A DNA stretch of 36,898 nucleotides from Candidatus Doudnabacteria bacterium (lineage in GTDB: Bacteria > Patescibacteriota > Doudnabacteria > UBA920 > 2-01-FULL-46-14). Positions 18,682 to 36,320 of the stretch are shown here, piece after piece. Every line of letters begins with the position of its first letter. The first letter of the stretch is position 1. The position numbers and the translations under genes were made by a program. A model generated the notes under the pieces. The model searched no databases. It saw only the letters and a program-made list of their open reading frames with translations, and was not told the origin of the DNA. The stretch lies in assembly GCA_023246055.1 (NCBI GenBank), contig JAHFJD010000006.1, forward strand, positions 1 to 36,898. The letters run 5' to 3'.

Positions 18682-20172
18682 CTAGGACGGAGTTGCGGTT
18701 AATGGTAAAAAACACGCGGTACGGTAATTTTCTGGAATCAGGCCGCAAAGCTCGATAATCTTTTCATCATTGTAAACCCAATGCAGTGCGTTAAACAAAT
18801 AACCAAAGCATTGCCATTGCTCTTCCGCACTGAACTTTCTGGAAAGACAATACGCAAAACCCTTCAAATGCTCTTGCCCCGGATGTCCGTGCGCGACCAA
18901 TCCGCCAGCAACTCCGCGGAAACAGCTTTCCTGCCATTGTGCTTTAAGCGCGCGGCAGACGGCAATGTAATTTTCTATCTCATCATTTACCAATGATTGA
19001 GTAACCGAGCCCGCAACAAAAGCGTTGATTATGATTTTGGCTGCATTCTCATCCTTGATGACAGAAATGTACCTCTTGATCACTGGGGTTAAATCAGCAA
19101 TTTGTCGGACGTAACGGGTGAGCGGCATCGCCAGTTCATATAAACAAGCTTGGAGGTGCGATTCATTCGCTTGCTGCTCGCAAAAAGAGAAAGGGTGCGC
19201 TTCGTCAGGTTTTAACCCGTATTCTTCGCTATACGTCCAGATGGCGATCACGTTGAATACTCCATCCAAACATTGCCGCACATCCGTTTCCATAGTTGAA
19301 ACCTGATCGCAGACGGTTAAACCGTTAGCAATCATCGCTTGCGCATCTCCCCATTGCTTTTCGCTTAAAGGTTCCGGTACCAGTCCGTGCCCTGCAGCGT
19401 GATAACAGGACTGTCTGATTTCAGGAATGGTTTTATTGTATTTTTTTTCCAGAAAGTCGCAGGTTTCATACACGACCTGCGGGTCAGGATTGTCTTCGAT
19501 CATATGCCCGATAAAACCATGATAAAATCCGTAATTGCAATAGACAGTCTCGGGCGGCAGTTCTAATTTCTCAAGTTCTTGAGACTTGCGGTACTCGGCA
19601 TAGGCGAAATCTCCGATCGTATGCGCGTGTTGGTGGCAACTGGTAAGAATAAAATCGGGGTCAGAAGCATAAATTTGGGTAAAAACTTGAAATGCGTATT
19701 TCACTCCTTTTTGCAGTAACGCGTCATTCAGCATATCCTCCCAACACTGTTCCTTTTTTTCCAAAGGCAACTTCCGCAAATCACTGCAAACGGAAATGAC
19801 TATTTTCTCGTTTTCTCCCACGACATTAATACGACCGATAAAATAGGCGGATAAATGATCGTGATAAAGCCACTCCCCTTCCTTATCAAACTCAAACGAC
19901 CAGGATTCGTGAGGCGGAATGGGCCGCTTCGGATCAAACTCGGGATAAGCTTTGTGTAAAGGATGAGAATTGGAAGCCGGCCAGAAAGGCTCTCCGTTAG
20001 TTGTGACAAACTCTACCACGTCTCCTCGCCTGATGGTTAGCTCTTTGGGATAAAAACCATCTTCTCGAAGTTCTACCCTTCGGTTTCCGCCCTGCGAGTT
20101 TTGAAAATAGCGATAACCAAAACCAGCCGCCAAAATCAAGATAACCAAAAATGCCACTAATCGCCGACGCAT
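18682..20172 (-). CDS. Exported fusion: His-rich cupredoxin domain + Cys/His-rich helical domain (paralogue P1)
   Basis: Start refined to ATG 20172 (MRRRLVAFLVILILAAGFGYRYF). 'FWPASNSHPLHKAYPEFDPKRPIPPHESWSFEFDKEGEWLYHDHL' cupredoxin; then 'CHQHAHTIGDFAY', 'CNYGFYHGFIGHM', 'CYHAAGHGLV', terminal 'LCGLIPENYRTACF'. Confidence 0.8.
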   Translation of the reverse strand: MRRRLVAFLVILILAAGFGYRYFQNSQGGNRRVELREDGFYPKELTIRRGDVVEFVTTNGEPFWPASNSHPLHKAYPEFDPKRPIPPHESWSFEFDKEGEWLYHDHLSAYFIGRINVVGENEKIVISVCSDLRKLPLEKKEQCWEDMLNDALLQKGVKYAFQVFTQIYASDPDFILTSCHQHAHTIGDFAYAEYRKSQELEKLELPPETVYCNYGFYHGFIGHMIEDNPDPQVVYETCDFLEKKYNKTIPEIRQSCYHAAGHGLVPEPLSEKQWGDAQAMIANGLTVCDQVSTMETDVRQCLDGVFNVIAIWTYSEEYGLKPDEAHPFSFCEQQANESHLQACLYELAMPLTRYVRQIADLTPVIKRYISVIKDENAAKIIINAFVAGSVTQSLVNDEIENYIAVCRALKAQWQESCFRGVAGGLVAHGHPGQEHLKGFAYCLSRKFSAEEQWQCFGYLFNALHWVYNDEKIIELCGLIPENYRTACFLPLTATPS

Positions 20173-21368
20173 CTTTCCCTCCATGACTGCGGGAGCAAGG
20201 TGCAATATTCCCTTTGCTCAACCGTTCCGGGATGAAAAATCTTTTTTGCTTGAGATGTCATTTCGCCGAGGCATTGCTCCTCAAAACCGGCCATTCGAGC
20301 TATTTCGCAAATACTCAAGGCTTTATGGACAAGACGGGGATCGATTTGCAACATGCGAAACGCACCAAAAGAATAGCATCTCCCCTGGACTTTTGTGGGC
20401 AAAGCCCGACAAAGTTTATCGTATTGGGCCACATCACTGTGATCCACCACCAGCACGACAGCAGCCATGCTTAGCGTTGTCTCTATGCATTTTTGCAGAA
20501 TCAGATCGGTTTTTGCGTATGCGCAAAACTCGATGATGGTCCGAGGGTTGATGAGGTGCTGCGGGTCGCTCGCATTGAGCATCTGATCCTTGAACATGGC
20601 CCAGGACTCGCTCATACACGACTCCCAATACAAACCGCTATATCGCCCGCATAATTCATCGCGGGTTTTCTTGTCTCTCGGTGCCACACCTGCGATCAAA
20701 GCAAAGTCCTCGGGCTCCAGGGGTTGATACAAGATCATAAACACTCCTTGGGAACACGTCTGCACGTAGTTTCGGCCATCGCTCTTTTGCCCGACATACT
20801 CACACAGGGCCAGTGACCGATCAATATCCGCACCAGTGATAAACATAAATAGATGCCCGAGGCCGTGATAACACATAGATCGTTCGTCCTCTACCGGCAC
20901 CCAGTTGTTTCTCGGTTCGCAAAGGTTCGGCAGTTCAGGCTCTAACGCCGCTAACTGATCCTCGTTTAGGACTTCGTCCTTGAATCTTTCCATCATCGCT
21001 CCATGCAGACAACCGTTATTGCACGTTGTGGTCGGGCAGCGAGTGATTACGTCTTTCCAAGCCTCCGGTGATTTTTCTGCTTCCCGGAATGAAAGCTTGT
21101 GAGCCAACACATGACAATACAGGAGCCTTGGGTCTTGGTCCTGGACGATCTTGGTCACCTCAAAAGCTTCTTCCATGGAGAGAGAATCCATGAGTTTGGG
21201 AATCTCCTGCTCATAACAGGTTACGGGATAGGAAAAATTCGTGCATCTTTGCATTACAACGCTCGCCAGCTCGCGAATGCTCTGCGGTCGCTTAAACTGC
21301 AGACTCACCCCAGCAAGCAGCATCAATCCCAGAACGACAAACGGAAAAATCTTCTTAATTTTAGACAT
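20157..21368 (-). CDS. Exported Cys/His-rich protein, type A (P2)
   Basis: Start refined to MSKIKK. 'YCHVLAHKLSFRE...RCPTTTCNNGCLHGAMMERF...MCYHGLGHLFMFITGADI...CSQGVFM'. Confidence 0.8.
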   Translation of the reverse strand: MSKIKKIFPFVVLGLMLLAGVSLQFKRPQSIRELASVVMQRCTNFSYPVTCYEQEIPKLMDSLSMEEAFEVTKIVQDQDPRLLYCHVLAHKLSFREAEKSPEAWKDVITRCPTTTCNNGCLHGAMMERFKDEVLNEDQLAALEPELPNLCEPRNNWVPVEDERSMCYHGLGHLFMFITGADIDRSLALCEYVGQKSDGRNYVQTCSQGVFMILYQPLEPEDFALIAGVAPRDKKTRDELCGRYSGLYWESCMSESWAMFKDQMLNASDPQHLINPRTIIEFCAYAKTDLILQKCIETTLSMAAVVLVVDHSDVAQYDKLCRALPTKVQGRCYSFGAFRMLQIDPRLVHKALSICEIARMAGFEEQCLGEMTSQAKKIFHPGTVEQREYCTLLPQSWRERCVGD

Positions 21369-21397
21369 ATTATTGAAATAATTATACCATAATAACA

Positions 21398-22993
21398 ATG
21401 AAGCTTTATGATTACATTTTTTTATTGCTGCTTGCCGCCGCTTTATTTGTCAGGATTTCTTATTTTGACTGGCCGCTCGGCGAGGGCGGAGCTGACTCCA
21501 GCCGTGATTATATAATCGCCAGCAAGATCCTCAACGATAAAGCCAGGCCTGGGTTTGGTCCCGACTCTGGGTTTGGTACTTACAACAGTCCTTCGTATTA
21601 TTATCTACTGGCATTTTTTTTATGGATAAGAAATGATTTTATCTTTTTACAATACGTTAACATCCTACTCCAGACGGCCGTCATCCTCTTGCTGTACGCG
21701 CTTACCAGAAGCGCGTTTGGCCAACCCGCTGCATTGCTCACCACTGGTCTGTTTGCCTTTTCCGAACCGATCATCAGGCAATCGCTTCATGTCTGGCAAC
21801 CTTACGTGATGCAATTTTTTTTCTATTTAGCAATATTGTTTCTACTCCTAGCCTACCGCAAACAAAATTATCGATACTTATTGTCAAGTCTGGTCATGAT
21901 AATTGTGGCCGGATCCTTGCATCTGTCGGCATTCGCCATGTTTCCTCTCATTTTCATTGCAAACCTATTTCTGCTTAAATCCTGGAAAGCCAGCCTTGAT
22001 CACTACATCGGCATCGTGGCCGCCGCGGGATCCAGTTTTTTGCTACTGTTCGGGACAATTTTCTCTAGTATCGGGTTCAGCCGGCCGGCTATCAAAACGA
22101 ATATCAGCGAGGTGCTGTGGCATCTTCCTTTCTGGCAGAAACTAATTTCCGAATTTTACAGCCTCCTCACCTTACCATTTAAAATGATCCTGTTTTCATT
22201 CGGCAACTCGCGTCACGATAACCTGGATATCAAGTACCTCGTAATCCTGGGGGTATTGATCTGCGGTTATTGCTTTTTCCAGAAATCACGGGAAAAACGC
22301 ATGATCCTAATGACTGTTTTGGGCTTGCTGATACAACCGGCTTTTTGGCTTTCTGTCGCTACCGCCAGCTCTCCCGAGATCGGCCTGAATATTCAGAGCC
22401 ATCATTTCACTCCCGTCTTCGGGCTCCTGTTCATCCTGGCGATTGTTCCGATTGCGGACATGCTTTCGCAAAATCGGTTCGCCACCATGATCGCCATAAT
22501 TCTCCTCTTTTCCCAAATCGTCTGGCCGGGCATGATCTCAGCTCAGGCCTGGGCCTCAAACCCAAAACACAAGCAAAATTATCAACATCTTGCGCAAGCC
22601 GCGCACGCCATAGAGGAGAAGGTCAATGAGCTGCATACAGAACAGCACCTGGAAAACTTTAGATTTTTTCAGCTAACCGTTTATCGCAGCGGCTCGAATC
22701 TGGTTTCCGACATGCTCTTCTGGAACGTTTTGGAGCAAGACATGAAATATCCCTTCGTGTATATCACACAACGTGGAGAACATATCATCAATGACGATCA
22801 ATACATCTTTTTGGTGTGTTTGGAGCATCAGGATATTCCTTATCCCGCAAAACAATGCCTGCAAGACTTTCGAGAGGCAAAGCATATACAAAATGTAAAC
22901 GACCGGAGTAATTATGCAGTCTTGGACAAGATTTATTCCGAATCGCCTTTCACTATTTTCCTGACCAAAAAGACCTCGATCTCTGGCCCTTAA
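21398..22993 (+). CDS. GT-C-type (ArnT/PMT-like) membrane glycosyltransferase
   Basis: 531 aa, about 10 hydrophobic segments, acidic loop after TM1 'DWPLGEGGADSSRDYIIASKIL'. Confidence 0.65.
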   Translation: MKLYDYIFLLLLAAALFVRISYFDWPLGEGGADSSRDYIIASKILNDKARPGFGPDSGFGTYNSPSYYYLLAFFLWIRNDFIFLQYVNILLQTAVILLLYALTRSAFGQPAALLTTGLFAFSEPIIRQSLHVWQPYVMQFFFYLAILFLLLAYRKQNYRYLLSSLVMIIVAGSLHLSAFAMFPLIFIANLFLLKSWKASLDHYIGIVAAAGSSFLLLFGTIFSSIGFSRPAIKTNISEVLWHLPFWQKLISEFYSLLTLPFKMILFSFGNSRHDNLDIKYLVILGVLICGYCFFQKSREKRMILMTVLGLLIQPAFWLSVATASSPEIGLNIQSHHFTPVFGLLFILAIVPIADMLSQNRFATMIAIILLFSQIVWPGMISAQAWASNPKHKQNYQHLAQAAHAIEEKVNELHTEQHLENFRFFQLTVYRSGSNLVSDMLFWNVLEQDMKYPFVYITQRGEHIINDDQYIFLVCLEHQDIPYPAKQCLQDFREAKHIQNVNDRSNYAVLDKIYSESPFTIFLTKKTSISGP

Positions 22994-24195
22994 CCCCGTT
23001 TAACCAGACATTGTTTCCCATATACCGGGGGCAGGTCATTGCACAGTTTCAAAAAATCCGCGGAGTTGACAGGGACATTGTATTCCGCGAAATTGACAAC
23101 AATTTGATAACATTTGTCTGCGCTTTGCGGATTTTTTGCAAGCTTGCAAAAAGCCACCGCCCGATCCACTAAATGAAGACCCCCGTGCAGCATGGCATTG
23201 GACATATCCCCAAAACATTGCCCTTGCTCCACGAGAGGGAACCCCTGACAATAATCGGCCAATTGCCCCGCATCGTAATTTGCCCCTTGAGCGCGCACAT
23301 AAAACATCATGCTATAACAGTGGTCCCGACTGGAAGCTCTGGCTCGGGAACAGTACTTCATGGTGCCGGAAGCAGTCTCGATCTCGTCCCGAAACAAAGA
23401 AAAACCTTCGGCCCAACACGCATCCTGCCAAGCTGGCTGCGCGAAACTGTGGCAAAATGCTAGAACGTCCTCCTTCTTGGTGGGGGCGACAGTTGCAGCC
23501 AGGGCCCGGTCGTCCGTATCAAGCGGTTGAAAGATTTGCATAAAAGCGCCCTCATAACACAAATTTTGAAAATCCTGACCAGTCCTTGTAAATGCCACGG
23601 ACCGGCACAATTCCAAGGCTTTCGGCATCTTTGCTCCAGTCATATAAACCGTCAAATGTCCTAGGCCATGAAAACATTCGGATTGTTCGAGGCCGGTAAT
23701 GCTCCATTTGTCGGTTCTGTCGCAGACCCCGATTAATTCCTGCTTGGCAATTTCAATCTGCTCATCCGTAAGGACCTCCCCTCGGAATCGCTCTTGCGCG
23801 GCCCCGTGCAAACAGCCGTTGGAGCAGATTCCTGTGGGGCAGCGATGGATCACCTCTGACCACTTGCTGATATCTTTTGCGGTTTCCTTGGCAGCGAGAT
23901 CATGGCCCAGGACATGACAGTAATTGTAGGTCGAGTCAGCGCCTTGAACGAGTTTTGCCACGGCAAATGCCTCCTCCATGGAAATTCGCTCCATGAGTTT
24001 CGGAATTTCTTTCTCATAACAAGTCGGATGGTAGTTGCTCCGTTGGCAGTTTTCCAAGACTGCGCGGGCCAGTGCTTGGATTGAGAGGGTCTCCCTCTCC
24101 TGCGATTTCTTGCCAGGACCAAAAAACCAAACAACAGCGAGTATACCCGCGAGTAAGATTAGACCAATATAACTGGATTTAGCTTTGAATTTCAT
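22990..24195 (-). CDS. Exported Cys/His-rich protein, type A (P3)
   Basis: 401 aa; 20 Cys counted; 'YCHVLGHDLAAKE...RCPTGICSNGCLHGAAQERF...ECFHGLGHLTVYMTGA...CYEGAFM'. Confidence 0.8.
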   Translation of the reverse strand: MKFKAKSSYIGLILLAGILAVVWFFGPGKKSQERETLSIQALARAVLENCQRSNYHPTCYEKEIPKLMERISMEEAFAVAKLVQGADSTYNYCHVLGHDLAAKETAKDISKWSEVIHRCPTGICSNGCLHGAAQERFRGEVLTDEQIEIAKQELIGVCDRTDKWSITGLEQSECFHGLGHLTVYMTGAKMPKALELCRSVAFTRTGQDFQNLCYEGAFMQIFQPLDTDDRALAATVAPTKKEDVLAFCHSFAQPAWQDACWAEGFSLFRDEIETASGTMKYCSRARASSRDHCYSMMFYVRAQGANYDAGQLADYCQGFPLVEQGQCFGDMSNAMLHGGLHLVDRAVAFCKLAKNPQSADKCYQIVVNFAEYNVPVNSADFLKLCNDLPPVYGKQCLVKRG

Positions 24196-25196
24196 AAATT
24201 CTGCAGACTCCCCTCAAGCACGCATTGATTTCTTTGTTTTTCTCTTAACCCTTTATTGCAAAGGATTTTCGCCTGCTCGTGGAAATTTGCACCGGCATCA
24301 AAAAACCCCCAATACCCGCCGCCCCGGCAGGATATTTGAGCGGCCTCTCCAGACATTTCACCACAGGCTTGTAGCACAGCTTCGGTTTCAAAATTTCCAG
24401 CTGACACTGCGCTTACTCCAATGCCGATGAAACAAATCTGGCGCAAATCTGATTCTGTCAAAGTTCGACAATATTCCCCCATTTCCGAATAATTTAATGA
24501 AAGACCTTTGTCCCACCATTCAGCTTGGGCATATACGCAAGAAAGGTGGAATCTATCAGGAATCTCAAAACAGGGACTGAATGGCTGGGTTTTATCAAAC
24601 TGTCGCGACTGTCTGCGTCCTCCGTTTTCATCGACGAATGTCGGAAAATTATATTCCATGAATACACCGCTCTGGCAACCAAACAACGGTTTCTGCCATT
24701 TCATTTTAGCACAAACGTTTAGAGCCTGCGATAAATCGTGACTAAAATATTCCACGAGACCATGACCGATGCCATGCTGACAACCTTGGCCGCCTAGACC
24801 AAATTTCTGAATACAGGCCTCGTCGAGCTGGGGGACGATCTCCAGTCCCTCACCCATTATTGCGGAAAGAAAAAACTGATGAAAACATCCAAAACCAAAC
24901 GCACTATCACAAACCGTTACTCCTTTTACTCCTTGGACTTCATACAGGGCCTGGCCGAAAGCGTGAGCTTGTATGTGCTGCTCTTCGACATTTTCCTTGG
25001 CCGTCTCCTGTTTAAAAATTTGGTAGGCCTGTTCTGGTCCTTGCCGTTGTATCTGCGAAGCCCAATCGGTTAAGGTGATCGGTTGTGGTCCTGGCACATG
25101 TACTTTGGATTGCAACGCAAACCCAACTCCGATCATCGACACTATTGCTACTAAAGAATAAAGGTAAGCTGTTACTTTTTGCTTCCGGAACTTAAT
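24192..25196 (-). CDS. Exported Cys/His-rich protein, type B (P4); proposed ATT start
   Basis: ORF 24192-25328 is open upstream, but AGGAGG lies 9 nt before ATT at 25196 (IKFRKQKVTAYLYSLVAIVSMIGVG signal). 'QHIQAHAFGQALY...CDSAFGFGCFHQFF...GCQHGIGHGLVEYF...CQSGVFMEYN'. Confidence 0.7.
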   Translation of the reverse strand: MKFRKQKVTAYLYSLVAIVSMIGVGFALQSKVHVPGPQPITLTDWASQIQRQGPEQAYQIFKQETAKENVEEQHIQAHAFGQALYEVQGVKGVTVCDSAFGFGCFHQFFLSAIMGEGLEIVPQLDEACIQKFGLGGQGCQHGIGHGLVEYFSHDLSQALNVCAKMKWQKPLFGCQSGVFMEYNFPTFVDENGGRRQSRQFDKTQPFSPCFEIPDRFHLSCVYAQAEWWDKGLSLNYSEMGEYCRTLTESDLRQICFIGIGVSAVSAGNFETEAVLQACGEMSGEAAQISCRGGGYWGFFDAGANFHEQAKILCNKGLREKQRNQCVLEGSLQNL

Positions 25197-26181
25197 GAGC
25201 GCAGCCCTCCTGCATTGATCCTGGTAAATCCCTGCATAACTGCAACTTCTTTTGTGAAAGTGTCGCGGGGAAACTAGTTGCTGCTTCGGCTTTACAAAGA
25301 ATCCGGTCGGCTTGATTTGGCATGGCATTGCATGCGGTAATAATTCCAGAGAAATCGTAGTTAAAATTTACTCCCAAGCTGTAGCCCAGACTGCGAATGC
25401 AAATATCCCCGAGTTTCGACGTCGGCGCTTGTCGGCACAATTCTCCAACTTTATGAAAATCTCTTTGAAAAACATTTTTCCACCAATGCGGCTGCTCGTT
25501 ATAACAAGCGGGAAGATATTTTTCCGGAAGCGAACGACACGGCTCCTGCGGATCAGAGTCGCCCAAACGGCGACCCGAATCCATGGAACCCGAAGGATCA
25601 ACCAAAGTTTGCCGGTTGTACTCCATAAATACGCCATTTTTGCATCCACCAATTTCATTTATATCCGAAATCGTATCGCAGACAGCCAAGGCTTTCAGAA
25701 GATTCTCTCGATCGTACCCGAGGTAACCGACAAGCCCGTGACCGATGCCATGCTCGCATATCATATCTCCTTCTCCAAATTTCTGCTTGCATACTGAATC
25801 GAGCTCCGGGATCACTGCCAAGCCCTGATCTGTGATCACCTCACCGATAAAACTGTGATAACAACCGAAATTGAAAGCCTCGTCGCAGACCGAAATCCCT
25901 GAAAATCCCTGCTTATCATAGAGCGCGATTCCAAACACGTGCGCGATATAATGCTGCTGCCCAAGGTCGGGAATTCCGGCTGTCTCTGATTTAAATTCTA
26001 AATATGCTTGTTCTGCGCCGCGCTCCGTTATCACCCCGCTCCATTTTTTGATCTCGGTTAAAAGAGAGTCATTACCGCTCAAGCGGGCTTGGTGTATGGT
26101 AACATTCTTATGGAAAAACCAAAACAGACCTCCCAAGATCAATAGCATCACGATCACAGCAACTTTCGTGTCATAATTCAT
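25192..26181 (-). CDS. Exported Cys/His-rich protein, type B (P5)
   Basis: Start refined to MNYDTKVAVIVMLLILGGLFWFF. 'QHYIAHVFGIALY...CDEAFNFGCYHSFI...ICEHGIGHGLVGYL...CKNGVFMEYN'. Confidence 0.8.
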   Translation of the reverse strand: MNYDTKVAVIVMLLILGGLFWFFHKNVTIHQARLSGNDSLLTEIKKWSGVITERGAEQAYLEFKSETAGIPDLGQQHYIAHVFGIALYDKQGFSGISVCDEAFNFGCYHSFIGEVITDQGLAVIPELDSVCKQKFGEGDMICEHGIGHGLVGYLGYDRENLLKALAVCDTISDINEIGGCKNGVFMEYNRQTLVDPSGSMDSGRRLGDSDPQEPCRSLPEKYLPACYNEQPHWWKNVFQRDFHKVGELCRQAPTSKLGDICIRSLGYSLGVNFNYDFSGIITACNAMPNQADRILCKAEAATSFPATLSQKKLQLCRDLPGSMQEGCAH

Positions 26182-26206
26182 AAGACAAGCCCTGACGCGC
26201 TGTCTC

Positions 26207-27421
26207 TCAACCGCGTTTCGCCAGACACTGCTCCTCGAACGGATTAGGCAACTCATTGCACAGCTTTACAAAATCAGCCGAGGACACCGAAATATTGTAC
26301 TCGGCAAACTCCACGATGATGCCATAGCATTCTTTTTGCTCTTCGGTGTTCTTAACCAAACTGCAGAAAACCGGAGCCCGATCCATTAACCTCCTTCCCC
26401 CATGGATGATGGCGTTGGCCATATGACCAAAACAAGAACCGCTCCTTGATCCCGTCAACGCCGAGCAATAAGCTGACAGTTTTTCGGGGTCATAGTTCGT
26501 CCCCTGGGCGTAAGCGTAAAACAACATACGGTAGCAGTGCTCGCGCTCTGCCTCATCGGCTTTCGAGCAATATTCCACCGTACCGTCAGCCGTATTGACC
26601 TCTCCGCGGAACAGTGGAAACCCTTCGTCCCAGCAAGCGTTCCGCCAGGTTTGCTTTTCAAAACTCTGACAATAGGCAAACAGCTCATCTTTGCTCTTCG
26701 GCCCGATGCCCTCGATCAGCGCAAAGTCCTCCGGCTCGAGGGGCTGGAAAAGCTGCATAAAAGCCCCTTCATGACATAAGCTTGTTTGATCACCTCCCCC
26801 GCTCGTATATGCAACCTCGTCGCAAATCTTCATGGCCTTAGGAATATCCGCTCCAGTTATATACATGATCACATGTCCCACGCCGTGGAAACATTCGGCT
26901 TGTTCAAGACCCGTCAACTGCCACTGGGGAGTAGGATCACAAACGCCTTTAAGCTCATGCCGGGCGATGTCCTGCTGTTCGGGAGTCAAAACTTCGCCCC
27001 GGAATCGCTCTTGCGCGGCCCCATGTAAACAGCCGTTGGAGCAGATTCCTGTGGGACAGCGCTTAATGATTTCTGTCCACTTGCCAGTCCCTTTGTCGAA
27101 CTCCCGAGCAGAAAGTTTATGTCCCAAAACATGACAATAATTGTAGGATGGATCATTGTCCTGGATGATAGTCGCGGCCAGAAAAGCGTCTTCCATGGAA
27201 ATTTTATCCATCAGTTTGGGAATTTCTTCATCATAGCAGGAAGGATGATGCGGCGTACCGGCACATTTCGCCAAAACCTCTCTGGCCAGCGACCGCAAGT
27301 CCGGCGCGGTTGGGGTTTGTTTTGGCCCCCAAAAAACCACAGCAACGGCAATGGCCACAAGCAGAATCGCGCGAGGCAGCCAAGATTGCCAAGATTGATT
27401 TGCAAACAATTTAAAAATCAT
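26207..27421 (-). CDS. Exported Cys/His-rich protein, type A (P6)
   Basis: 404 aa; 'YCHVLGHKLSARE...RCPTGICSNGCLHGAAQERF...ECFHGVGHVIMYITGADI...CHEGAFM'. Confidence 0.8.
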   Translation of the reverse strand: MIFKLFANQSWQSWLPRAILLVAIAVAVVFWGPKQTPTAPDLRSLAREVLAKCAGTPHHPSCYDEEIPKLMDKISMEDAFLAATIIQDNDPSYNYCHVLGHKLSAREFDKGTGKWTEIIKRCPTGICSNGCLHGAAQERFRGEVLTPEQQDIARHELKGVCDPTPQWQLTGLEQAECFHGVGHVIMYITGADIPKAMKICDEVAYTSGGGDQTSLCHEGAFMQLFQPLEPEDFALIEGIGPKSKDELFAYCQSFEKQTWRNACWDEGFPLFRGEVNTADGTVEYCSKADEAEREHCYRMLFYAYAQGTNYDPEKLSAYCSALTGSRSGSCFGHMANAIIHGGRRLMDRAPVFCSLVKNTEEQKECYGIIVEFAEYNISVSSADFVKLCNELPNPFEEQCLAKRG

Positions 27422-28383
27422 AAATTCTCGGCAAGGTTACCTTCTTTTTCGCACCGGGTACGATTTTGTAGATCCAAATCCTCACACATTAATTTTGCCA
27501 CGTCCTTAAAGCCCGCGTCAAGCCACCCCCAATAAGCTCCGACCCGGCAAAGAAACTGGGAGTCCGGGTCGTCAATTTCCCGGCAGGCCGCCAAAACTTT
27601 CTGCGCTTCAAAATCGTTGGCCGAAACCGCGCTGGTCCCAAGACCCGTCAAACAGATGTTCGCAAGTGCCGGCTCATCTAGCCTCCGGCACAGCCCTGCC
27701 GCTTCGGTATAGCTCATGACCGTGCTTTTATCCCACCACTCGGCTTGGGCAAACATGCAAGCCACACGGAATCTCTCCGGGATGGACAAACACGGGGCAA
27801 AAGGTTCAGCGGGATCAAAGTTTCGCGTCCCTTGCTGGCTTTCGTTTTCGCCCAGCAGAGTGGGAAAGTTGTGTTCCATAAACACCCCGCTTTGGCAACC
27901 AAACAGCGGTTTGTCCCAGTGCATTGTTCCGCATATTTCCAAAGCTTCTGTTATAGAATGATTGAGAAAATCCGCAATTCCATGGCCGACTCCGTGCTGG
28001 CAACCCTGACCGCCAAATCCGAATTTCCGGATGCAGGTTCCATCCAAATCGCGGACTATAGAAAGACCGTGGTCGGCAATGGCGCCCAGGAAAAACTGAT
28101 GATAACACCCAAACCCGAAACTGCTATCGCAAACCGTAACTCCGTCTATACCCACAGTCTGATAAAGCGCCTGGCCGAACTCATGAGCCGCCGTATGCTG
28201 CTCCCCAAATGGCAGGGTCGCATTCCGGTCCTTAAAAATTTGATATGCTGTCTCGGCTCCCTTTTCCGCGATCAGCCGTTTCCAATCGTCCGGCGGCGCC
28301 TCCTGCCGGTCCCGTAAAGGAATTGCCCCTGCCAGAAAGGCTAAACCGACAAGGACCATAACGCCGTAAAAATATCTTCTCAT
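27418..28383 (-). CDS. Exported Cys/His-rich protein, type B (P7)
   Basis: 321 aa; 14 Cys counted; 'QHTAAHEFGQALY...CDSSFGFGCYHQFF...GCQHGVGHGIADF...CQSGVFMEHN'. Confidence 0.8.
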   Translation of the reverse strand: MRRYFYGVMVLVGLAFLAGAIPLRDRQEAPPDDWKRLIAEKGAETAYQIFKDRNATLPFGEQHTAAHEFGQALYQTVGIDGVTVCDSSFGFGCYHQFFLGAIADHGLSIVRDLDGTCIRKFGFGGQGCQHGVGHGIADFLNHSITEALEICGTMHWDKPLFGCQSGVFMEHNFPTLLGENESQQGTRNFDPAEPFAPCLSIPERFRVACMFAQAEWWDKSTVMSYTEAAGLCRRLDEPALANICLTGLGTSAVSANDFEAQKVLAACREIDDPDSQFLCRVGAYWGWLDAGFKDVAKLMCEDLDLQNRTRCEKEGNLAENL

Positions 28384-28403
28384 TTAACGCCGTGTTATTC
28401 ATA

Positions 28404-29621
28404 TTAATTGATTTGCAAATTACTGCGACATTTTTCTTGGTAACTAGCCGGGATTTCGCCGCAAAAATTTTTCCGATAGGATGGATCAGAAATATAAAAA
28501 CCAACGGCCCCGATGAGGTTTTCCAGACAAGCAGAGCGGTCAGCTTCATTCGGAACCGAAGTACAGAATCTAATAGCCACGCTCCGATCGTTTTCCCCCC
28601 CCCAAAAAAGTGAATTTACCGCGGAGAGGATGCAGGCTTTTGCGTCGTCCCCGTCTGCCGCGAGGGAGCACCAATCAGAGACCGTTGTCAATTGCTTGTC
28701 CGTTATCCGGGTAAATGATTCTTTTCGGATATCCCGGCCACGGACGAGCACCACGAACTCCTTGCCAAACCCGCCAGCGCACAGATTACGGCCGACTTTG
28801 TCAGAAGCAGACATCTGGGCGCAGAATTTAAAGGCTTTGCGAAAATCTTCAGGGCCGGGATTGCCCAAATCAGCACCTGCGGCCTCCAAGAGATAAGGTG
28901 TAATATAGGCGAGGCAGAAAGGACGGGCGGTAGCGCTGATAAAACTCCGTTGACAAAGAGAAGCCGGCTCGCTAGGGTCCAGATACTTTTTACGTTGCTC
29001 GGTCCAGAGCTGGCGATCGTGAAAACCACCGCCGGTAATTTCCATAACCATACCCCCCACGCATTCACCCGTTTCCCGGGATCCGGTTTTTTCGCACAGT
29101 TGCACGGCCTTTTCCATATCGTAACCAACGGAAGCCAAAATTCCATGCCCCAGACCATGAAAACACATCATATAAGCACCACTGCCGCCAGGAGCTTTAT
29201 GGCAAGCCTCGGCGATTTCCGGCAGGGCTTGTTCGCCCTTGTCTAAAAACAATCCGATGACTATGGAATGGGAACAGGCGTTGCGAAAATCATCGGTACA
29301 GGCCGTGATCCCCCCCAATCCTTCCTGCTCATACAGCTTATCTCCCAGCGCATGGCCCAAAAGGTGCATGTCCAGATTGCCGGGGATTTCCGAGTGTATC
29401 ATTACTGCAAATGCGTATCTTGCCCCCTTCTTATCAGCCAGGTCCTTAAAATATTTCTCCACCACCTCCAACTTTCCGGGCAGGCTTTTAATCTCTGCCA
29501 ATTCCGGATAACTGCCTGATTGGTTAGCTTTCGGAAAATGGTCCCGCAGATATACTCCTGCCAAAACCAAATTCAGAAGTATAAAAAATCCCAGCAAACT
29601 CGATAATTTATTTTTGTCCAT
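28404..29621 (-). CDS. Exported Cys/His-rich protein (P8, divergent)
   Basis: 405 aa; 'MHLLGHALGDKLY...CTDDFRNACSHSIV...MCFHGLGHGILASVGYD...CVGGMVMEITGG', terminal 'FCGEIPASYQEKCR'. Confidence 0.8.
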   Translation of the reverse strand: MDKNKLSSLLGFFILLNLVLAGVYLRDHFPKANQSGSYPELAEIKSLPGKLEVVEKYFKDLADKKGARYAFAVMIHSEIPGNLDMHLLGHALGDKLYEQEGLGGITACTDDFRNACSHSIVIGLFLDKGEQALPEIAEACHKAPGGSGAYMMCFHGLGHGILASVGYDMEKAVQLCEKTGSRETGECVGGMVMEITGGGFHDRQLWTEQRKKYLDPSEPASLCQRSFISATARPFCLAYITPYLLEAAGADLGNPGPEDFRKAFKFCAQMSASDKVGRNLCAGGFGKEFVVLVRGRDIRKESFTRITDKQLTTVSDWCSLAADGDDAKACILSAVNSLFWGGENDRSVAIRFCTSVPNEADRSACLENLIGAVGFYISDPSYRKNFCGEIPASYQEKCRSNLQIN

Positions 29622-29622
29622 G

Positions 29623-30096
29623 CTAATCAGTTACCAGAAAAAAACCGACTGTGCCAGTGGAATTGTCGCAGCCGAAACCATACAAACCGGGTCCATGGGC
29701 GAACTCTGGAGTAACTACTGTGTCGCCCGCCGCCTTGATCTCGTATGTAGTGGTCAAATCAAGACCGATGACATGAGGTCCGCCATCAGGATTTTTCACC
29801 GTAAGCGAAGAACCGCGTTTGATCCGGACCGCGATCGGCGAGGGGCGGCAACTGCCGATCTCTAAAACCGAGATATCTTGGGCCAGTTTGACCACCGCCT
29901 CAAAATGACGGCGTTTTTCCTCTTCCGAAGCGTCTGGACCGGGTGTCATAAAAATGTTCTCCGCTGAGAACTTCTGTTGGTTTTGGCTGCCGCTGTCAGA
30001 CGGACGATACTGTTTATACACCAAACCTCCCAAAACTATTGCCACAACCACCAGTATGCCTAGAACAATTTTATAAACCGTAGGAATGCCGTCCAT
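29623..30096 (-). CDS. Membrane-anchored cupredoxin-like protein
   Basis: 157 aa; N-terminal TM; 'SCRPSPIAVRIKRGSSLTVKNPDGGPHVIG...FAHGPGLYGFGCDNSTGTVGFFLV'. Confidence 0.65.
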   Translation of the reverse strand: MDGIPTVYKIVLGILVVVAIVLGGLVYKQYRPSDSGSQNQQKFSAENIFMTPGPDASEEEKRRHFEAVVKLAQDISVLEIGSCRPSPIAVRIKRGSSLTVKNPDGGPHVIGLDLTTTYEIKAAGDTVVTPEFAHGPGLYGFGCDNSTGTVGFFLVTD

Positions 30097-30287
30097 TATT
30101 AGTTTTAACTATTGGAAAATTCCACTTGAAGATTTTATCACATTATCACAGTCATAGCCTTAAAGGCCGTGCCCGTTTGAAACATCAGATGATTAATCTA
30201 TACCGAAATAGCAAATTCATAATTAAGAGCCTACTTTATAACTTGCTTTTTAGATAAAATGTTCAGAATGTTGAGCGAAAGCTTTGA

Positions 30288-30462
30288 AAAACACGGAAGA
30301 GGTCGTCCGAAAACTGTCATTCCCGTGAAGCTTGCCCTCGACCACGATCGGGGGACGGGAATCCAGTTCATTATAAAAGCCTTGATAATCTGATAATTTC
30401 TGGATTCCGGCCGGCGCGGGGGTGACGGAAAATAGGGTTTTCGGACGGTCTCTGAGTGTTTT
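30288..30462. repeat. MITE-like inverted-repeat-bounded intergenic element (~175 bp)
   Basis: Ends GAGGTCGTCCGAAAAC (30299-30314) and GTTTTCGGACGGTCTC (30437-30452) are inverted at 14/16; flanks AAAACAC/GTGTTTT extend the arms. Confidence 0.7.
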
Positions 30463-30526
30463 GAAAAGTTTGCAGCCAAGATTCTGACATTTCAGCCAAC
30501 TTTGAAGTTATGAAACAGGCTCTAAG

Positions 30527-31036
30527 CTATTCTACAACTTGAAATATACCTACAGAAGAATTTTCATCGCAGGCAAACCCATAAACCCCGACACCATGCA
30601 CAAAGCTGGGTTTGATTGATTTCTCAGCATTCGCTTCTATCTCCAAAATTGTATCTTCACCGCTCTTCAGGACGTGTGCTTTGGCATCCATATTTTTGAC
30701 CATGAGATTCTGACCGAGTTTAACTTTCGCTATTGCAGGTGTGCCCCGGCAATTCGAGATACTCATACTCTGCGTATCAATAGCGATTTCCATAACGTTT
30801 TTGGCAAACTCTTTGGCCTTTTGACCAGTAACATCTGTTCCCAGATCGGTTGTCAGCAGTTTCTGCACTTGGGCTGAATTCTCTTCCGAAGAGACCTTTT
30901 TATCAGTAGTGCCTTGGTTTACATTTACAGTCGACGAATTTGGAGAATCTTTTTTATTTCTTCCAACTAATAAAAACCCGACAAATCCCGCGGCGATAAT
31001 TAATGCTATAATGGCGGCTTTACTTTGGTCTGACAT
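30527..31036 (-). CDS. Membrane-anchored cupredoxin-like protein, paralogue of 29623..30096
   Basis: 169 aa; 'NCRGTPAIAKVKLGQNLMVKNMDAKAHVLKSG...FVHGVGVYGFACDENSSVGIFQVV'. Confidence 0.65.
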   Translation of the reverse strand: MSDQSKAAIIALIIAAGFVGFLLVGRNKKDSPNSSTVNVNQGTTDKKVSSEENSAQVQKLLTTDLGTDVTGQKAKEFAKNVMEIAIDTQSMSISNCRGTPAIAKVKLGQNLMVKNMDAKAHVLKSGEDTILEIEANAEKSIKPSFVHGVGVYGFACDENSSVGIFQVVE

Positions 31037-31103
31037 TTTATTTCGTTATTATTAGTTGATTAAGACTAATTTGAGAATAAACCCCAATAAAATAGTTGTC
31101 AAG

Positions 31104-31481
31104 TCAATCCTCGACAACCACACTACCTCGCAGATTTGGCATAAGGTGATCGTGAAACTTCCAGGTGCCGGTTTTATCGAATACAAAACTCCATTCCGCC
31201 CCCGGCGCGACAGGCTGGCGCGGATCAAACTCGGGATATAGGCCATGAGTCGGATGCAGATTGGAAGCGGGCCAGCGAGGCTTGGTATCAAGATTTTTGA
31301 AAATCGCCTTTGTCCCTCGCTTGATGACAATGTTGTCAGGTTCAAAAGTTCCGGGTTTCATGGTGATTACGAAGACACCCTTAACCTTGGTTCCATTGTT
31401 ATTACCTGATAAATAATACCCACCGGCCACAATTGCAGCCACGGCAGCAAGGCCAACTAGAATTTTTAGATTCCGTGACAT
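31104..31481 (-). CDS. Membrane-anchored His-rich cupredoxin
   Basis: 125 aa; 'RWPASNLHPTHGLYPEFDPRQPVAPGAEWSFVFDKTGTWKFHDHLMPNLRGSVVV', closely matching the N-terminal domain of P1. Confidence 0.85.
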   Translation of the reverse strand: MSRNLKILVGLAAVAAIVAGGYYLSGNNNGTKVKGVFVITMKPGTFEPDNIVIKRGTKAIFKNLDTKPRWPASNLHPTHGLYPEFDPRQPVAPGAEWSFVFDKTGTWKFHDHLMPNLRGSVVVED

Positions 31482-31482
31482 C

Positions 31483-32229
31483 TCATTTTGTCTTTAGGGC
31501 TTCGTCGATGATTTTCTGAAAATTCGAAAATGGCTGGGAGCCGCGGACCATGGTCCCGTTCACGAAGAACATCGGAGTGCCAGCGACATCGGCCGCTTGC
31601 CCATCTGCTACATCCTTGGCCACTTCGTCTTTAAACTTTTGCGAATCCAAACAGGCAGTAAATTGCGAGGTATTGAGTCCAATTTCGTTCCCCCATTTTT
31701 TGATATCACTTACCTCATACTGGACGGTGGACTCCCCATCTTTATCCTGTTCGGAAAAAAGCTTGTCATGCCAATCCCAAAATTTACCCTGGTCGTCCGC
31801 GCATTCTCCAGCTTCGGCGGAAATCTCGGCCGCCGGGTGCATGGGCAATGGAAAATCCCGATACACGAGCTTCACCTGGCCGCTGTCAATATAATTCTTT
31901 TTTATTTCCGGCAAAGTCTCGCGCCAAAATTTGCGGCAGAACGGACACTGGAAATCCGAAAATTCAATGATGGTTACCGGCGCTTTCGCTTCACCCAAAA
32001 CAGGGTCGTCATCCGCTGAAACAGCGGTATTTTTGACTCTGGTCTCCCCTCCTACTTGCGGAGGGGGCGTAACGGAGGCGACATTCCGATTCGGCATGCC
32101 GAAGGAAATATAAATTGATACGGCAATAATCACCAACCCAGAAAAAATCGCTTGAGGGATGCCGAATTTAGGAGTTAGGGATTGGGGGGTGGATGATGGA
32201 AGAGGTGGAAGATTGGATTGGTCGTCCAT
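31483..32229 (-). CDS. DsbA/BdbD-like thiol:disulfide oxidoreductase, TM-anchored
   Basis: 248 aa; 'VTIIEFSDFQCPFCRKFWRETLPEIKKNY...GTPMFFVNG' CPFC active site. Confidence 0.9.
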   Translation of the reverse strand: MDDQSNLPPLPSSTPQSLTPKFGIPQAIFSGLVIIAVSIYISFGMPNRNVASVTPPPQVGGETRVKNTAVSADDDPVLGEAKAPVTIIEFSDFQCPFCRKFWRETLPEIKKNYIDSGQVKLVYRDFPLPMHPAAEISAEAGECADDQGKFWDWHDKLFSEQDKDGESTVQYEVSDIKKWGNEIGLNTSQFTACLDSQKFKDEVAKDVADGQAADVAGTPMFFVNGTMVRGSQPFSNFQKIIDEALKTK

Positions 32230-32352
32230 GATTATTTAATATTACATGAATCTTTGGCCACGGGTCAAATTGTGGTAAAATACACCCACAACCTCTCCCT
32301 TTGCAAAGACTGGGGAATGAGAGGGGGCCCACAATTAACGAAAGAACACTAC

Positions 32353-32886
32353 ATGAATTCTCTATTCTCTATTCTCTATTCGATATTCTCTCGTCGCTTA
32401 CTGCTTACTGCTTACTGCTTACCCCTAGATACCGCCTATGCTCATTGCGACTACCCTTGCGGGATTTATGACCCGCACGCGGCTCAAATCGGAGCGCTCA
32501 CAGTGATTCGCATGATGGATCTCATGGCTGAACTCGAAAAAGAACATCACGATCATGATATAGAATTTCGCAACTCTATGATCAGGGCTGTGAACATCAA
32601 AGAAGAGCATGCGGAGCTTGTGAAGCGCGAGATTCGCGTCATTTGGGGCGACTATTTCAAACCGGAGCTTGCCCAAAAATACCCGGAATTGTCAAAGTTG
32701 GTTTATGAGATCATGTCACTGGCATCCAAAACCAAACAAACCGTAGAGCGCGCTACGGCCCAAAAACTCCTCGAGAGAATTAACCGGTTCGCGGAAATTT
32801 TTTGGGAAACCAAAGGGAAACAAACCAAGCGTGTAAAAGCTCCGTATAAACCGGAAGCAGAAATCATCGTACCTGTTCTCGAGTAA
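32353..32886 (+). CDS. sodN: Nickel superoxide dismutase precursor
   Basis: Start refined to ATG 32353; leader ...PLDTAYA then 'HCDYPCGIYDPHAAQIGALTV', 'KEEHAELVKREIRVIWGDYFKPELAQKYPELSKLVYEIM', 'IFWETKGK'. Ni-hook HCxxPCGxY present. Confidence 0.95.
   Translation: MNSLFSILYSIFSRRLLLTAYCLPLDTAYAHCDYPCGIYDPHAAQIGALTVIRMMDLMAELEKEHHDHDIEFRNSMIRAVNIKEEHAELVKREIRVIWGDYFKPELAQKYPELSKLVYEIMSLASKTKQTVERATAQKLLERINRFAEIFWETKGKQTKRVKAPYKPEAEIIVPVLE
32357..32423 (+). repeat. Two heptanucleotide tandem repeats in the Ni-SOD leader: (ATTCTCT)5 and (GCTTACT)4
   Basis: Direct reading: 32357-32391 (one divergent unit, attcgat) and 32396-32423. Confidence 0.95.
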
Positions 32887-32891
32887 ATTTC

Positions 32892-33224
32892 ATGACGTGG
32901 CCAATCAAGATAGTTAAAATCAGTGGGCACAGCATGCAACCAGCACTGCGGCACGGCCAGGTTGTATTAGTCAATCGATGGGTCTATTTATTCAGCAAAC
33001 CTCAAATCGGAGATATAACTTTATTCCGCAATCCAAAAAACACGAAACAACTCTTCTGTAAACGGATTGCCGCGATCAATCGGGAGAAAAAAGAAGTCTA
33101 CATGGTCGGCGATAATGCGCAAGATAGCCTCGATTCCCGCCAGCTGGGGACAATCAAGCTTCAACAAATAGTAGGTCGGGTTGCCTCGCTGTCGGCACCC
33201 TTGCCTAATAACTTATGTATATAG
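32892..33224 (+). CDS. sodX: S26-type signal peptidase-like protein, nickel-type SOD maturation protease
   Basis: 110 aa; 'ISGHSMQPALRHGQVVLVNRW' catalytic Ser, 'FCKRIAAI' Lys, 'VGDNAQDSLDSRQLG' box; immediately downstream of sodN. Confidence 0.9.
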   Translation: MTWPIKIVKISGHSMQPALRHGQVVLVNRWVYLFSKPQIGDITLFRNPKNTKQLFCKRIAAINREKKEVYMVGDNAQDSLDSRQLGTIKLQQIVGRVASLSAPLPNNLCI

Positions 33225-35022
33225 AGGCCGTGCTGTTAGATTGCCCGTTCTGAGTACCATAAGTGGGCGGCATGGTGCCAAAAGTTTGGAATTTCCATCT
33301 GAATTGTCCACTCGCGCCGGGGCCTATTTTGAGGTCATTCTTTGCTGGCGAATTACCATTTGTATTATATACAAGCCAATAAGTAGTGTTGGGATTTAGA
33401 GTGGCTGTTATTGGAATAGTGTTCCAGGTGTTAGCAGTAAGGGTTCCAATTGCCGTGCTGGCGATAAGTGCTCCGGGGTTACCTCCGCTATCAGAATAGA
33501 GAGCCATCTGGAATTGATCTCCAGGAGAAGGGCCTACCGGAGAAGGGATATAAACCGACATAGACACGGCCGATCCCGCTTGGTTAGGCATGGTGAAGCT
33601 AAAAGCGTTCAGATAATTGGAATCGTCAGTATCTGTACTGGGAGCAATAGTATTGTTACCAAGAATATTTACAGGTGCAAGAACCCAAGACACATGCGAC
33701 ACCGCTCCTCCGCCATTCTCATAGTATTCTACCTTGACGCGATGGGTGCCGGAGGTCAAAGAGATGTTTTTGGTGTAGGTGGTGGGGGGTTGGTCAATCC
33801 ATTTGTCGATTTGTAATGTATTGTCCACATAGACTCTGACGCCATCATCTGCGGTGGTGGTAAAAGTATAAGTTCCTGTAGTGGAGAAGCTGAAGTCTCC
33901 TTCCCATCTTGCGGAGAACAGATCGACGGGAACTGTAGGGTCAGGGGAGCCACCGCCCCAGTCAAAGTTGATCGTGGAATCAGTTCGAGTCAGTAGCAGA
34001 GTATTAAAGTTCATGCCGCTGTAGTAACAGCCGAAGAAGGAGTTTGAGCCGATAGTGGCACAAGAAGGAGAGGCAGGGTTTACATTAACGATAATATCAT
34101 CAGTCGAGGTCAATTGACTGTCACTAGCGCTTAATCGCAACACATAAGTACCAGAGGCAGAAAAACTCGCGGTGGTAGAAAGTGCGCTGGCATTGCCAAA
34201 ATTCACGGTGTCAGGACCAGAAAACTTTGACCAAGTAGTCGTGAGTATACTGCCAGAGGGTAAACTGTCATCACTAGCACTCCCAATCAGACTTGCTGTG
34301 GCTGGCAAAGTAATGGTTTGGTCTATGCCAGCATTGACAATAGGTGGTTGGTTCGGTGGAGGTGGTGGAGGTGGTGGAGGTGGAGGTAAAATCCCTGTCT
34401 GAATACTGATTTTTCCGGAAACCCCATCAATAATCATATTTTTACTTAAACCAGTGGCTTGTAGAAGTTCTGCTGATACGATCTGGTATGGTAAACCATT
34501 GACGAGAATAGCGCCGTAGGGTGCGGTAATTCTAATTACTGCCGAGGTTACCGGGACCCCATTCACAGTCAGGGAACCCAATGTGACTCTACCTGCAAAC
34601 GCACTATATGGCGCGTTTTCCAAGAGGGCGATGGTGCCATTGATGTCCGAATCGATCCGATAGGTCCCTGAACCCACGGTAAGCGTGATCTGATATGCAT
34701 CAGCAGCCTGGCCTTGACCGGGAACTATTTTCCCATTGAGAATAAATGTCTGAATTTCCCGCAATTTGGAGATCGTATCAAAACGAGCGCCATTAATTTC
34801 CTGGGTTGTTCGCAAGGTCTTGAAACTCACTGCTGCTCCGATGGACAAGATGACAGTGATCGCGCTAACCACGAGGAGCTCAATGAGAGTGAACCCCTTC
34901 TCGGAAGTTCCAAATTCCAAATTCCAAATTCCAAACAAATTCCAGTGGCTCAATGACCAAATATTTTGGATTTTAAATTTAGCTCTTTTTTGTAATTTGT
35001 AATTTGTAATTTGTAATTTCAT
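33205..35022 (-). CDS. Prepilin with PKD-like and PA14 domains (putative pilus-tip adhesin)
   Basis: 605 aa; 'EKGFTLIELLVVSAITVILSIGAAVSF' prepilin; Pro11 linker; 'PPIVNAGIDQTITLPATASLIGSASDDSL'; PA14 'WEGDFSFSTTGTYTFTTTADDGVRVYVDNTLQIDKW...HRVKVEYYENGGGA'. Confidence 0.85.
   Translation of the reverse strand: MKLQITNYKLQKRAKFKIQNIWSLSHWNLFGIWNLEFGTSEKGFTLIELLVVSAITVILSIGAAVSFKTLRTTQEINGARFDTISKLREIQTFILNGKIVPGQGQAADAYQITLTVGSGTYRIDSDINGTIALLENAPYSAFAGRVTLGSLTVNGVPVTSAVIRITAPYGAILVNGLPYQIVSAELLQATGLSKNMIIDGVSGKISIQTGILPPPPPPPPPPPNQPPIVNAGIDQTITLPATASLIGSASDDSLPSGSILTTTWSKFSGPDTVNFGNASALSTTASFSASGTYVLRLSASDSQLTSTDDIIVNVNPASPSCATIGSNSFFGCYYSGMNFNTLLLTRTDSTINFDWGGGSPDPTVPVDLFSARWEGDFSFSTTGTYTFTTTADDGVRVYVDNTLQIDKWIDQPPTTYTKNISLTSGTHRVKVEYYENGGGAVSHVSWVLAPVNILGNNTIAPSTDTDDSNYLNAFSFTMPNQAGSAVSMSVYIPSPVGPSPGDQFQMALYSDSGGNPGALIASTAIGTLTANTWNTIPITATLNPNTTYWLVYNTNGNSPAKNDLKIGPGASGQFRWKFQTFGTMPPTYGTQNGQSNSTASIYISY
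34907..34934. repeat. Heptanucleotide tandem repeat (ATTCCAA)4
   Basis: Direct reading; in the prepilin leader coding region. Confidence 0.9.
34989..35016. repeat. Heptanucleotide tandem repeat (TTTGTAA)4
   Basis: Direct reading; encodes MKLQITNYKLQ at the prepilin N-terminus. Confidence 0.95.
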
Positions 35023-35069
35023 AGAGAATCAATCACCGGCCAACACGCAGGTGGAATATTTAATACTCA

Positions 35070-35834: not shown

Positions 35835-36307
35835 GACACCGGCTGATTGCTAGTATCAAACGCACTGCCATCCTCATTCAAATGATATGCGGCGTTTTTG
35901 TTCTCAATGAAAAAATCTATGCGGTAACTGGGATACACCAAAGGATTACCTGCACAAGAAGACGGAATCCCAGTGCCAGTTGCAGCATAGGTGTATTGGT
36001 ATAAGGGCACTGCCGGATCGTTGGGTACTCTGGTAAAAGCACTGGTGCAGCTGACGAGCTGGCCTGGCACCCAAACCGATGACGGCGGATATCCCCCCCC
36101 TTCATTTAAATATAGATCAAAACCAAGCTTGACCTGCTTCATATCAGTGATCCTGCGCGCATCGCGGGCTCGGATTCTTGAAATATTAAGCGCGGCCAGC
36201 ACAATCGAGGTTAAAAGTCCGATTATCGCGACCACCACCAAAAGCTCAATCAAGGTAAACCCCGTCTTGGAGGTGGGAGGTGGGAGGTGGGAGGTGGGGC
36301 TTTTCAT
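35813..36307 (-). CDS. Type IV pilin
   Basis: 164 aa; 'SKTGFTLIELLVVVAIIGLLTSIVLAALNISRIRARDARRITDMKQV'. Confidence 0.9.
   Translation of the reverse strand: MKSPTSHLPPPTSKTGFTLIELLVVVAIIGLLTSIVLAALNISRIRARDARRITDMKQVKLGFDLYLNEGGGYPPSSVWVPGQLVSCTSAFTRVPNDPAVPLYQYTYAATGTGIPSSCAGNPLVYPSYRIDFFIENKNAAYHLNEDGSAFDTSNQPVSWDSLLN
36269..36296. repeat. Heptanucleotide tandem repeat (GGAGGTG)4
   Basis: Direct reading; encodes the Pro-rich prepilin leader. Related units restart at 36883 at the window end. Confidence 0.95.
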
Positions 36308-36320
36308 GCTAAATTCTTAT

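Follow-up and report, generated by a model that had tools for sequence, protein, structure and literature searches.

The 36,898-nucleotide stretch analysed here (the window, a 36.9-kb contig labelled G000:C54) comes from a Candidatus Doudnabacteria genome of 1.16 Mb in 67 contigs and encodes eight tandem paralogues, P1–P8, all on the minus strand between positions 18682 and 29621. The conserved core of these proteins constitutes a new protein family with no match by sequence or fold in Pfam, NCBIfam or the Protein Data Bank. Our tentative interpretation is that the paralogues form part of an exported metal enzyme system of several proteins, whose role would be the oxidative modification, probably the cross-linking, of tyrosine-rich tracts in proteins that the same cell secretes or displays on its surface.

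The core is recognised by a series of motifs in fixed order, HxxxH, (N)xGCxHG, CxHGxGH and CxxGxFM, followed by recurring cysteine pairs. An ordered signature of this kind had been proposed for the eight paralogues in a preliminary description of this DNA, and it is confirmed in the family at large: histidines 97, 101, 133, 179 and 183 (P6 numbering) are each retained in 97–99 of 99 core units, far above chance at a median pairwise identity of only 19%, which also bears out the multi-histidine signature as such. The alignment of the 99 units has 269 well-filled columns, and the 17 that reach at least 95% identity consist of the five histidines, ten cysteines and two glycines; no invariant acid, serine or tyrosine occurs in it. 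Three histidines in P6 have close cysteine neighbours (C96-H97, C131xH133 and C177xH179). The CxxGxFM motif holds as described earlier, but its last residues are less strict than claimed: position 222 is methionine in almost all non-fused members and mostly asparagine (or serine, threonine or aspartate) in the subfamily fused to a cupredoxin domain, P1 included, and P8 has valine for phenylalanine.

The core cysteines look fully disulfide-paired. Counted from just upstream of the core, they add up to an even number in 88 of 90 proteins (binomial p ~7e-24, a value that is indicative only, because the sequences are related), and pairs are lost together, perfectly so for 96-127, 353-365 and 388-399 and almost so for 285-296 and 319-330. 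Even counts and joint loss point to cysteines that are structural, oxidised and fully paired. The covarying pairs sit 11–16 residues apart, mostly as staples between an A helix and a B helix, and the pair 96-127 is a single cross-brace linking repeats 1 and 2; the spacing C-x(2-4)-P-x(4-7)-C suggested originally does not describe them. Oxidised cysteines are consistent with export, which had been predicted and which agrees with a hydrophobic N-terminal segment in 94 of 97 core open reading frames (ORFs). Since the cysteines all appear to be engaged with one another, the histidines are left as the sole shared candidate metal ligands.

An AlphaFold2 (AF2) model of the P6 core (m0bce4e06d691, 70 sequences; pLDDT 95.2, pTM 0.92) is helical throughout, with approximately nine alpha-alpha repeats, and confidently predicts a disulfide-stapled alpha-alpha solenoid; together with cysteine parity and covariation it sustains the earlier suggestion of a disulfide-stapled helical protein. 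The five histidines are placed on the B helices of the first three repeats, and Met222 on that of the fourth. Because B helices of neighbouring repeats pack side by side in a solenoid, the five histidines likely cluster in space. In addition, the 96-127 pair joins the neighbour of H97 to the segment just before H133, and covariation therefore suggests that these two histidines should be close.

The family went unrecognised when the sequence was first read, and database comparisons agree. No meaningful match was found for 70 scanned members in Pfam or NCBIfam, none among solved structures by sequence, and thus no strong match to any characterised non-metal family in Pfam, NCBIfam or the Protein Data Bank (PDB). 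A Foldseek comparison of the model with the PDB gave nothing at E <= 0.001 (best TM ~0.25), and against viral proteins only weak matches to Sel1 repeats (E 8e-3, TM 0.18). Searches of the literature for an already described cupredoxin or cysteine-rich system of Patescibacteria turned up nothing comparable. A profile built from the eight paralogues detected a ninth, single-copy relative in the same genome (G000:C47); it also matched 13 of 60 relatives and, phylum-wide, 21 of 380 genomes. The collection scan used profile A2, a subset of profile A1. About 100 family members were recovered, every one from Patescibacteria-type genomes. Coverage beyond Patescibacteria comprised one scan of named genomes, in which the relatives were metagenome-assembled genomes (MAGs) called Colwell-, Giovannoni-, Yanofsky-, Taylor-, Kaiser-, Nomura- and Gottesmanbacteria, and one scan of viral contigs, in which no core relative was found. 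Kinship with these MAGs and the small genome size are the grounds for placing the window in Patescibacteria. All surveyed genomes are uncultured MAGs, many of them fragmented.

The strongest partner of the arrays, overlooked in the preliminary description, is a group of secreted proteins with tyrosine repeats. In the window, the candidate substrate is a protein of 725 residues encoded on the minus strand at 14251–16428, 2.25 kb from P1, and composed of a signal peptide, a cysteine-rich N-terminal part, a (YYQG/YYEG)n tract (approximately 14959–15711) and a Fn3/DUF11-like C-terminal part. The tract amounts to about 250 residues of YYQGYYEGYYQG repeats and is encoded twice, an identical second copy of the gene lying at 6682–8859 on the same strand (tract approximately 7390–8142). 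Between the two copies, which are separated by 7569 bp, lies a DDE transposase gene (9645–10445); the second copy is perhaps a recent duplication, possibly via the transposase element, or an effect of assembly.

Similar tyrosine, glutamine and glycine repeats, for example YYQGYYEG and YYSQSSYYSQ, recur in secreted proteins associated with other arrays. When all ORFs in the core loci were ranked by tyrosine density, the top proteins were of this type, each from an array-type locus, and such proteins are found at 9 of 24 array-type core loci (some of which are neighbours within one genome) versus none of 24 single-copy loci (p = 0.0016). A second test searched whole genomes with a DNA pattern that encodes three Tyr-Tyr pairs with spacing between them. 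Genomes qualified with at least four hits on one strand and at most two for a reversed-pattern control, a rule set after the counts had been seen; by this rule, and with counts taken from the tables by eye, a strong signal is present in 10 of 18 array-type genomes, compared with 10 among the 329 others (Fisher p = 1e-9; leaving out the window genome, 1e-8). Among the ten background genomes, G029 carries a heptamer repeat that is apparently non-coding.

Tyrosine-repeat genes, often no more than about 7 kb away, are close to the array in the window and in G021, L056, L058, L059, L060, L062, L064, L069, G214 and G339; extended flanks place them ~4–7 kb from the array in L058, L060 and L062, and in L069 the gene sits at the contig end, adjoining cupA, a cupredoxin-type gene discussed below. 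The proteins of G214 and G339 are of a YYTP type that the DNA pattern misses. YYTP/YTTP-repeat proteins with repeated cysteine-rich modules are also present beside or inside arrays in two genomes of family f93 (L073:6542-9322, and L070:9940-12000 with L071:1-840). The tracts YYSQ, YYGQG, YYQG and YYEG are carried by differing scaffolds, which by eye are Fn3/DUF11-like, Ig-like, CARDB-like or begin TPR-like. A tract that recurs in unlike carriers, next to a metalloprotein candidate that is exported and likewise recurrent, fits the picture expected of an enzyme and its substrate. With this partner, the loose metal/redox idea becomes an enzyme–substrate pair that is open to direct testing.

The organisation of the arrays speaks for joint action of their products. 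A phylogenetic tree splits the core into subfamilies I (P2, P3, P6), II (P4, P5, P7), III (P8) and IV (P1) with SH-aLRT support of 97–100, and adds a single-copy clade, S, outside the arrays. Across the arrays of many lineages the gene order cupB-III-II-I-IV(-IV)-cupA is kept, with variations, and a natural fusion in L069 unites types III and I on one polypeptide; the conserved multi-paralogue order and this fusion suggest that several paralogues act together. At 9–12 kb, an operon for one exported candidate metalloprotein system is a large outlay in the tiny genomes of Patescibacteria.

In the window, where all genes of the operon are on the minus strand, the type III gene P8 (28404–29621) is the conserved first core gene. 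It is followed by P7 (27418–28383, type II), P6 (26207–27421, type I), P5 (25192–26256) and P4 (24192–25328), both of type II and both with a true start probably within the ORF, P3 (22990–24195, type I, ~57% identical to P6), P2 (20157–21398, type I) and P1 (18682–20205, type IV). P1 had been listed as a plain paralogue; the core is indeed present, with asparagine for methionine at the sixth position, but it is fused to an N-terminal cupredoxin-fold domain (19822–20085). Upstream of P8 lie genes for a small anchored protein of cupB type (29623–30096), with two conserved cysteines and conserved C...P and HGxGxYGYxCD-like motifs, a second cupB-type protein (30527–31036), the membrane-anchored cupredoxin-fold protein cupA (31104–31481) and, as the first gene of the operon here, a DsbA-like oxidase of the thioredoxin fold (Thioredoxin_4; 31483–32229). 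A cupB-type gene recurs immediately upstream of subfamily III in several genomes.

All three small anchored proteins had been described as cupredoxin-like. This stands for cupA, which matches Pfam Cupredoxin_1 (PF13473) with E = 6e-9, above the curated cut-off, but neither cupB-type protein has a confident Pfam match. In a first survey, 21 proteins joined a cupA domain to the core. WPASxxHPxH and HxH (in the form H[DN]H) are common to all 36 aligned cupA domains, and the window protein has them as WPASxxHPxH...HDH. When cupA is aligned to amicyanin, aspartate occupies the position of the copper cysteine, which is missing from 36 of 36 domains, and the remaining type-1 ligands are absent as well. 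A blue (type-1) copper protein, with its ligand set of His, Cys, His and Met, can thus be ruled out, and the loss of these ligands together with the retention of HPxH...HxH makes a histidine-only metal site likely. It follows that copper binding, which had been assumed from the presence of cupredoxins, is not automatic. cupA is present in 17 of 21 core genomes versus 89 of 359 without the core (p = 3e-7, with genomes treated as independent), and the linkage of the core with HxH cupredoxins recurs widely, as anticipated; the expected DsbA linkage is confined to a minority of loci, with DsbA-like genes near five and VKOR near one.

How such a system could work can be sketched as follows. The B helices of repeats 1–3 would present H97xxxH101, H133 and H179xxxH183, and that of repeat 4 Met222 or asparagine, so as to form two adjacent metal sites, one of three histidines and one of two histidines plus methionine or asparagine, which would most likely hold two copper ions. 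The four paralogue types would work jointly, possibly in a physical complex, and the histidine-only cupredoxin domains, fused in type IV, may supply or relay metal or present the substrate. The many disulfides would be made by DsbA or VKOR. A YYxQ/YYxG tract would be the substrate, as its genome-wide and local association suggests, and oxygen or another oxidant would drive the oxidation or cross-linking of tyrosine.

Several observations weigh against this proposal. The sixth ligand is variable, position 222 being Met in 71 and Asn in 18 of 99 units. Clade S retains the five histidines with no tyrosine-repeat protein nearby, tyrosine-repeat genes are absent from G043, G395, G403 and G404 or escaped detection there, and the pattern turns up in a few array-less genomes as well. 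The genome-wide association treats genomes as independent and takes its background from one crude DNA pattern. Finally, a terminal (haem-copper) oxidase was found in 2 of 22 genomes searched; most core carriers do without one, and the use of O2 is therefore not assured. The same count led to the rejection of the arrays as an oxidase accessory.

The mechanistic proposal leans on a chemical parallel with BURP cyclases and with the CuM site of peptidylglycine monooxygenase (PHM; the related dopamine enzyme is DBM), neither of which is homologous to the core by the tests run. BURP cyclases (AhyBURP, ArbB2) have disulfide-stapled Cys-His motifs and two proposed type II copper ions, and use O2 to form cross-links at Tyr, Trp, Gln and Gly of short peptides (PMC11253845, PMC12186524). 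Both BURP proteins and the core place cysteines next to metal or candidate metal histidines, possess disulfide staples, have histidine-only sites proposed for two copper ions and act, or would act, on substrates that contain tyrosine, glutamine and glycine; the core Cys-His motifs with their covarying cysteines are in this sense analogous to, and not the same as, the four CH motifs of BURP. The folds differ, a beta-barrel/beta-sheet with four Cys-His motifs versus an all-alpha solenoid with five histidines, and compared with the plant proteins the core is bacterial, arranged in paralogue arrays and provided with a presumed substrate that is encoded separately. With slightly more reserve than for the general function, we entertain the idea that the core represents a bacterial metalloenzyme of a new class, all-alpha and disulfide-stapled, with five histidines and probably two copper ions, whose reaction would be to cross-link or hydroxylate tyrosine tracts in the secreted proteins of the cell itself, as a convergent counterpart of plant BURP cyclases. 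If core proteins do modify such tracts, they would extend the small set of copper-type systems that cross-link peptide side chains by a new fold, establish a dedicated tyrosine chemistry of surface proteins in Patescibacteria and offer a genetic handle on how these organisms build surface structures.

Other known systems share single features with the core. The candidate division into three histidines and two histidines plus methionine recalls CuH and CuM of PHM/DBM; PHM is built of beta-sandwich domains, whereas the core model is all-alpha, its motif spacing is different and its methionine is replaced by asparagine in the fused subfamily. Tyrosinases carry HxxxH pairs on helices and use tyrosine as a substrate, which is also the suspected substrate of the core, but type-3 copper proteins have six-histidine CuA/CuB motifs in place of five invariant histidines, and differ in order, spacing and fold. 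The ligands of CuM in PHM are His242, His244 and Met314 (PMC6123673). Sel1-like solenoids such as the Hcp proteins and COA7, whose disulfide pairs are 8–11 residues apart (PMC12114033), resemble the core in their alpha-alpha repeats with intra-repeat disulfides, which are predicted in the core; the five-histidine signature is not known for them and the structural superpositions are weak. EfeO is an exported protein with an N-terminal cupredoxin followed by an all-helical, histidine-containing metal domain, the M75 imelysin (PMC9174327), and thus has the same domain layout as P1, but the core lacks its HXXE motif and any invariant glutamate, and no EfeU/EfeB-type genes were noticed in the arrays. 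The Pfam models for BURP, copper monooxygenase (PHM/DBM), tyrosinase and Peptidase_M75 and the Sel1 repeat HMM had no match in the 70 core members.

Possible alternatives (ALTERNATIVES) are that the proteins store or deliver metal, that they build a structural matrix held by metal bonds, or that they bind haem as COA7 does. In the first, which we regard as unlikely, the core and the histidine-only cupredoxins would buffer, store or deliver copper or another metal outside the cytoplasm in a non-catalytic manner, like periplasmic copper-resistance proteins. Invariant histidines in a core whose catalytic-type residues, acids included, all vary would fit, as would cupredoxin domains with HPxH/HxH, one core gene (L066) that has CopC and weak CopD domains in its vicinity, and neighbouring AHG-type proteins whose likely mature N-terminus is histidine, as in CopC. 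The Cu-ATPase of the window genome could be added, but 233 of 380 genomes across the phylum have one and it was dropped as a clue. Moreover, no transporter recurs in the arrays, and mere handling of metal leaves both the tyrosine-repeat partners and the four conserved paralogue types unexplained.

An equally improbable alternative holds that the core proteins are structural or adhesive subunits, and that histidine-bound metal and tyrosine tracts together form a metal-coordinated matrix, a holdfast or a host-contact layer without any enzymatic step. It would account for exported, anchored proteins in multiple copies, for Tyr/Gly/Gln repeats within secreted Fn3/DUF11-like or Ig-like scaffolds, and for the FG-GAP/ASPIC genes that adjoin some arrays and the pilin genes in the window. 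Adhesins, however, usually diversify, while five histidines and the main cysteine pairs are frozen here over deep divergence, and neither clade S nor the cupredoxin fusions need such a role.

That the proteins bind haem or transfer electrons, with histidine (and methionine) as axial ligands of a b-type haem, is distinctly doubtful. COA7, a cysteine-rich and disulfide-tethered helical repeat protein, has been described as haem-binding (PMC12114033), histidines and a methionine are conserved in the core, and there is a weak structural likeness to viral Sel1 proteins; five invariant histidines with two i,i+4 pairs nevertheless suit metal chelation better than axial ligation, there is no CXXCH and no sequence match to Sel1 or PDB proteins, and no haem or cytochrome genes recur in the arrays. 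Removal of superoxide or peroxide together with a nickel superoxide dismutase (Ni-SOD), as the preliminary description had considered, is very improbable and finds no specific support, for the divergent Ni-SOD gene next to this array stands beside none of the other arrays examined and, over 380 genomes, shows no co-occurrence with the core (3/21 versus 26/359, p = 0.21), so that it was rejected as a partner and its linkage here is incidental. Overall, the metal/redox interpretation given initially is partly supported, and the oxidative modification of tyrosine tracts remains the reading we prefer.

Other genes accompany the arrays. The divergent pair of the window, present as first described, consists of Ni-SOD (32218–32886), with the Ni-hook HCDYPCGIY after AYA, and a small S26 peptidase ORF directly downstream (32892–33224); of the 380 Patescibacteria genomes, 29 have a Ni-SOD. 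Full genes for haem-copper oxidase subunit I are found in two small Patescibacteria genomes (G021:C1:820133-821482 and G043:C15:13864-15207). Multicopper oxidases are sporadic and were not retained as a partner. Small exported AHGxG proteins are encoded near arrays in L058 (for example L058:15877-16419), L061, L063, L065 and L040 (HQTG in the last), and their predicted mature N-terminus is histidine, as in CopC or lytic polysaccharide monooxygenases (LPMOs); AF2 gives a generic Ig-like beta sandwich with modest matches, and CopC identity was set aside, the predicted N-terminal histidine remaining as a hint. A carbamoyltransferase, an SGNH hydrolase and an HTTM-like membrane gene pair lie beside some arrays (L058, L067, L068, L069 and L036); these and TPR genes, with 3–5 loci or hits each, were dropped as parts of the system.

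Single-copy core relatives adjoin secD/secF-like genes in two genomes of one family (L042, L044), and at L069:12456-14594 a core domain is joined to an alpha/beta-hydrolase (esterase-like) domain. Elsewhere in the window, a HepT-like/nucleotidyltransferase (MNT) toxin–antitoxin pair adjoins P1 (18007–18643), type IV pilin-like genes and a prepilin peptidase lie past the Ni-SOD genes (33205–36867), and a 1013-residue protein (2694–5735) combines LCAT-like hydrolase and beta-helix parts.

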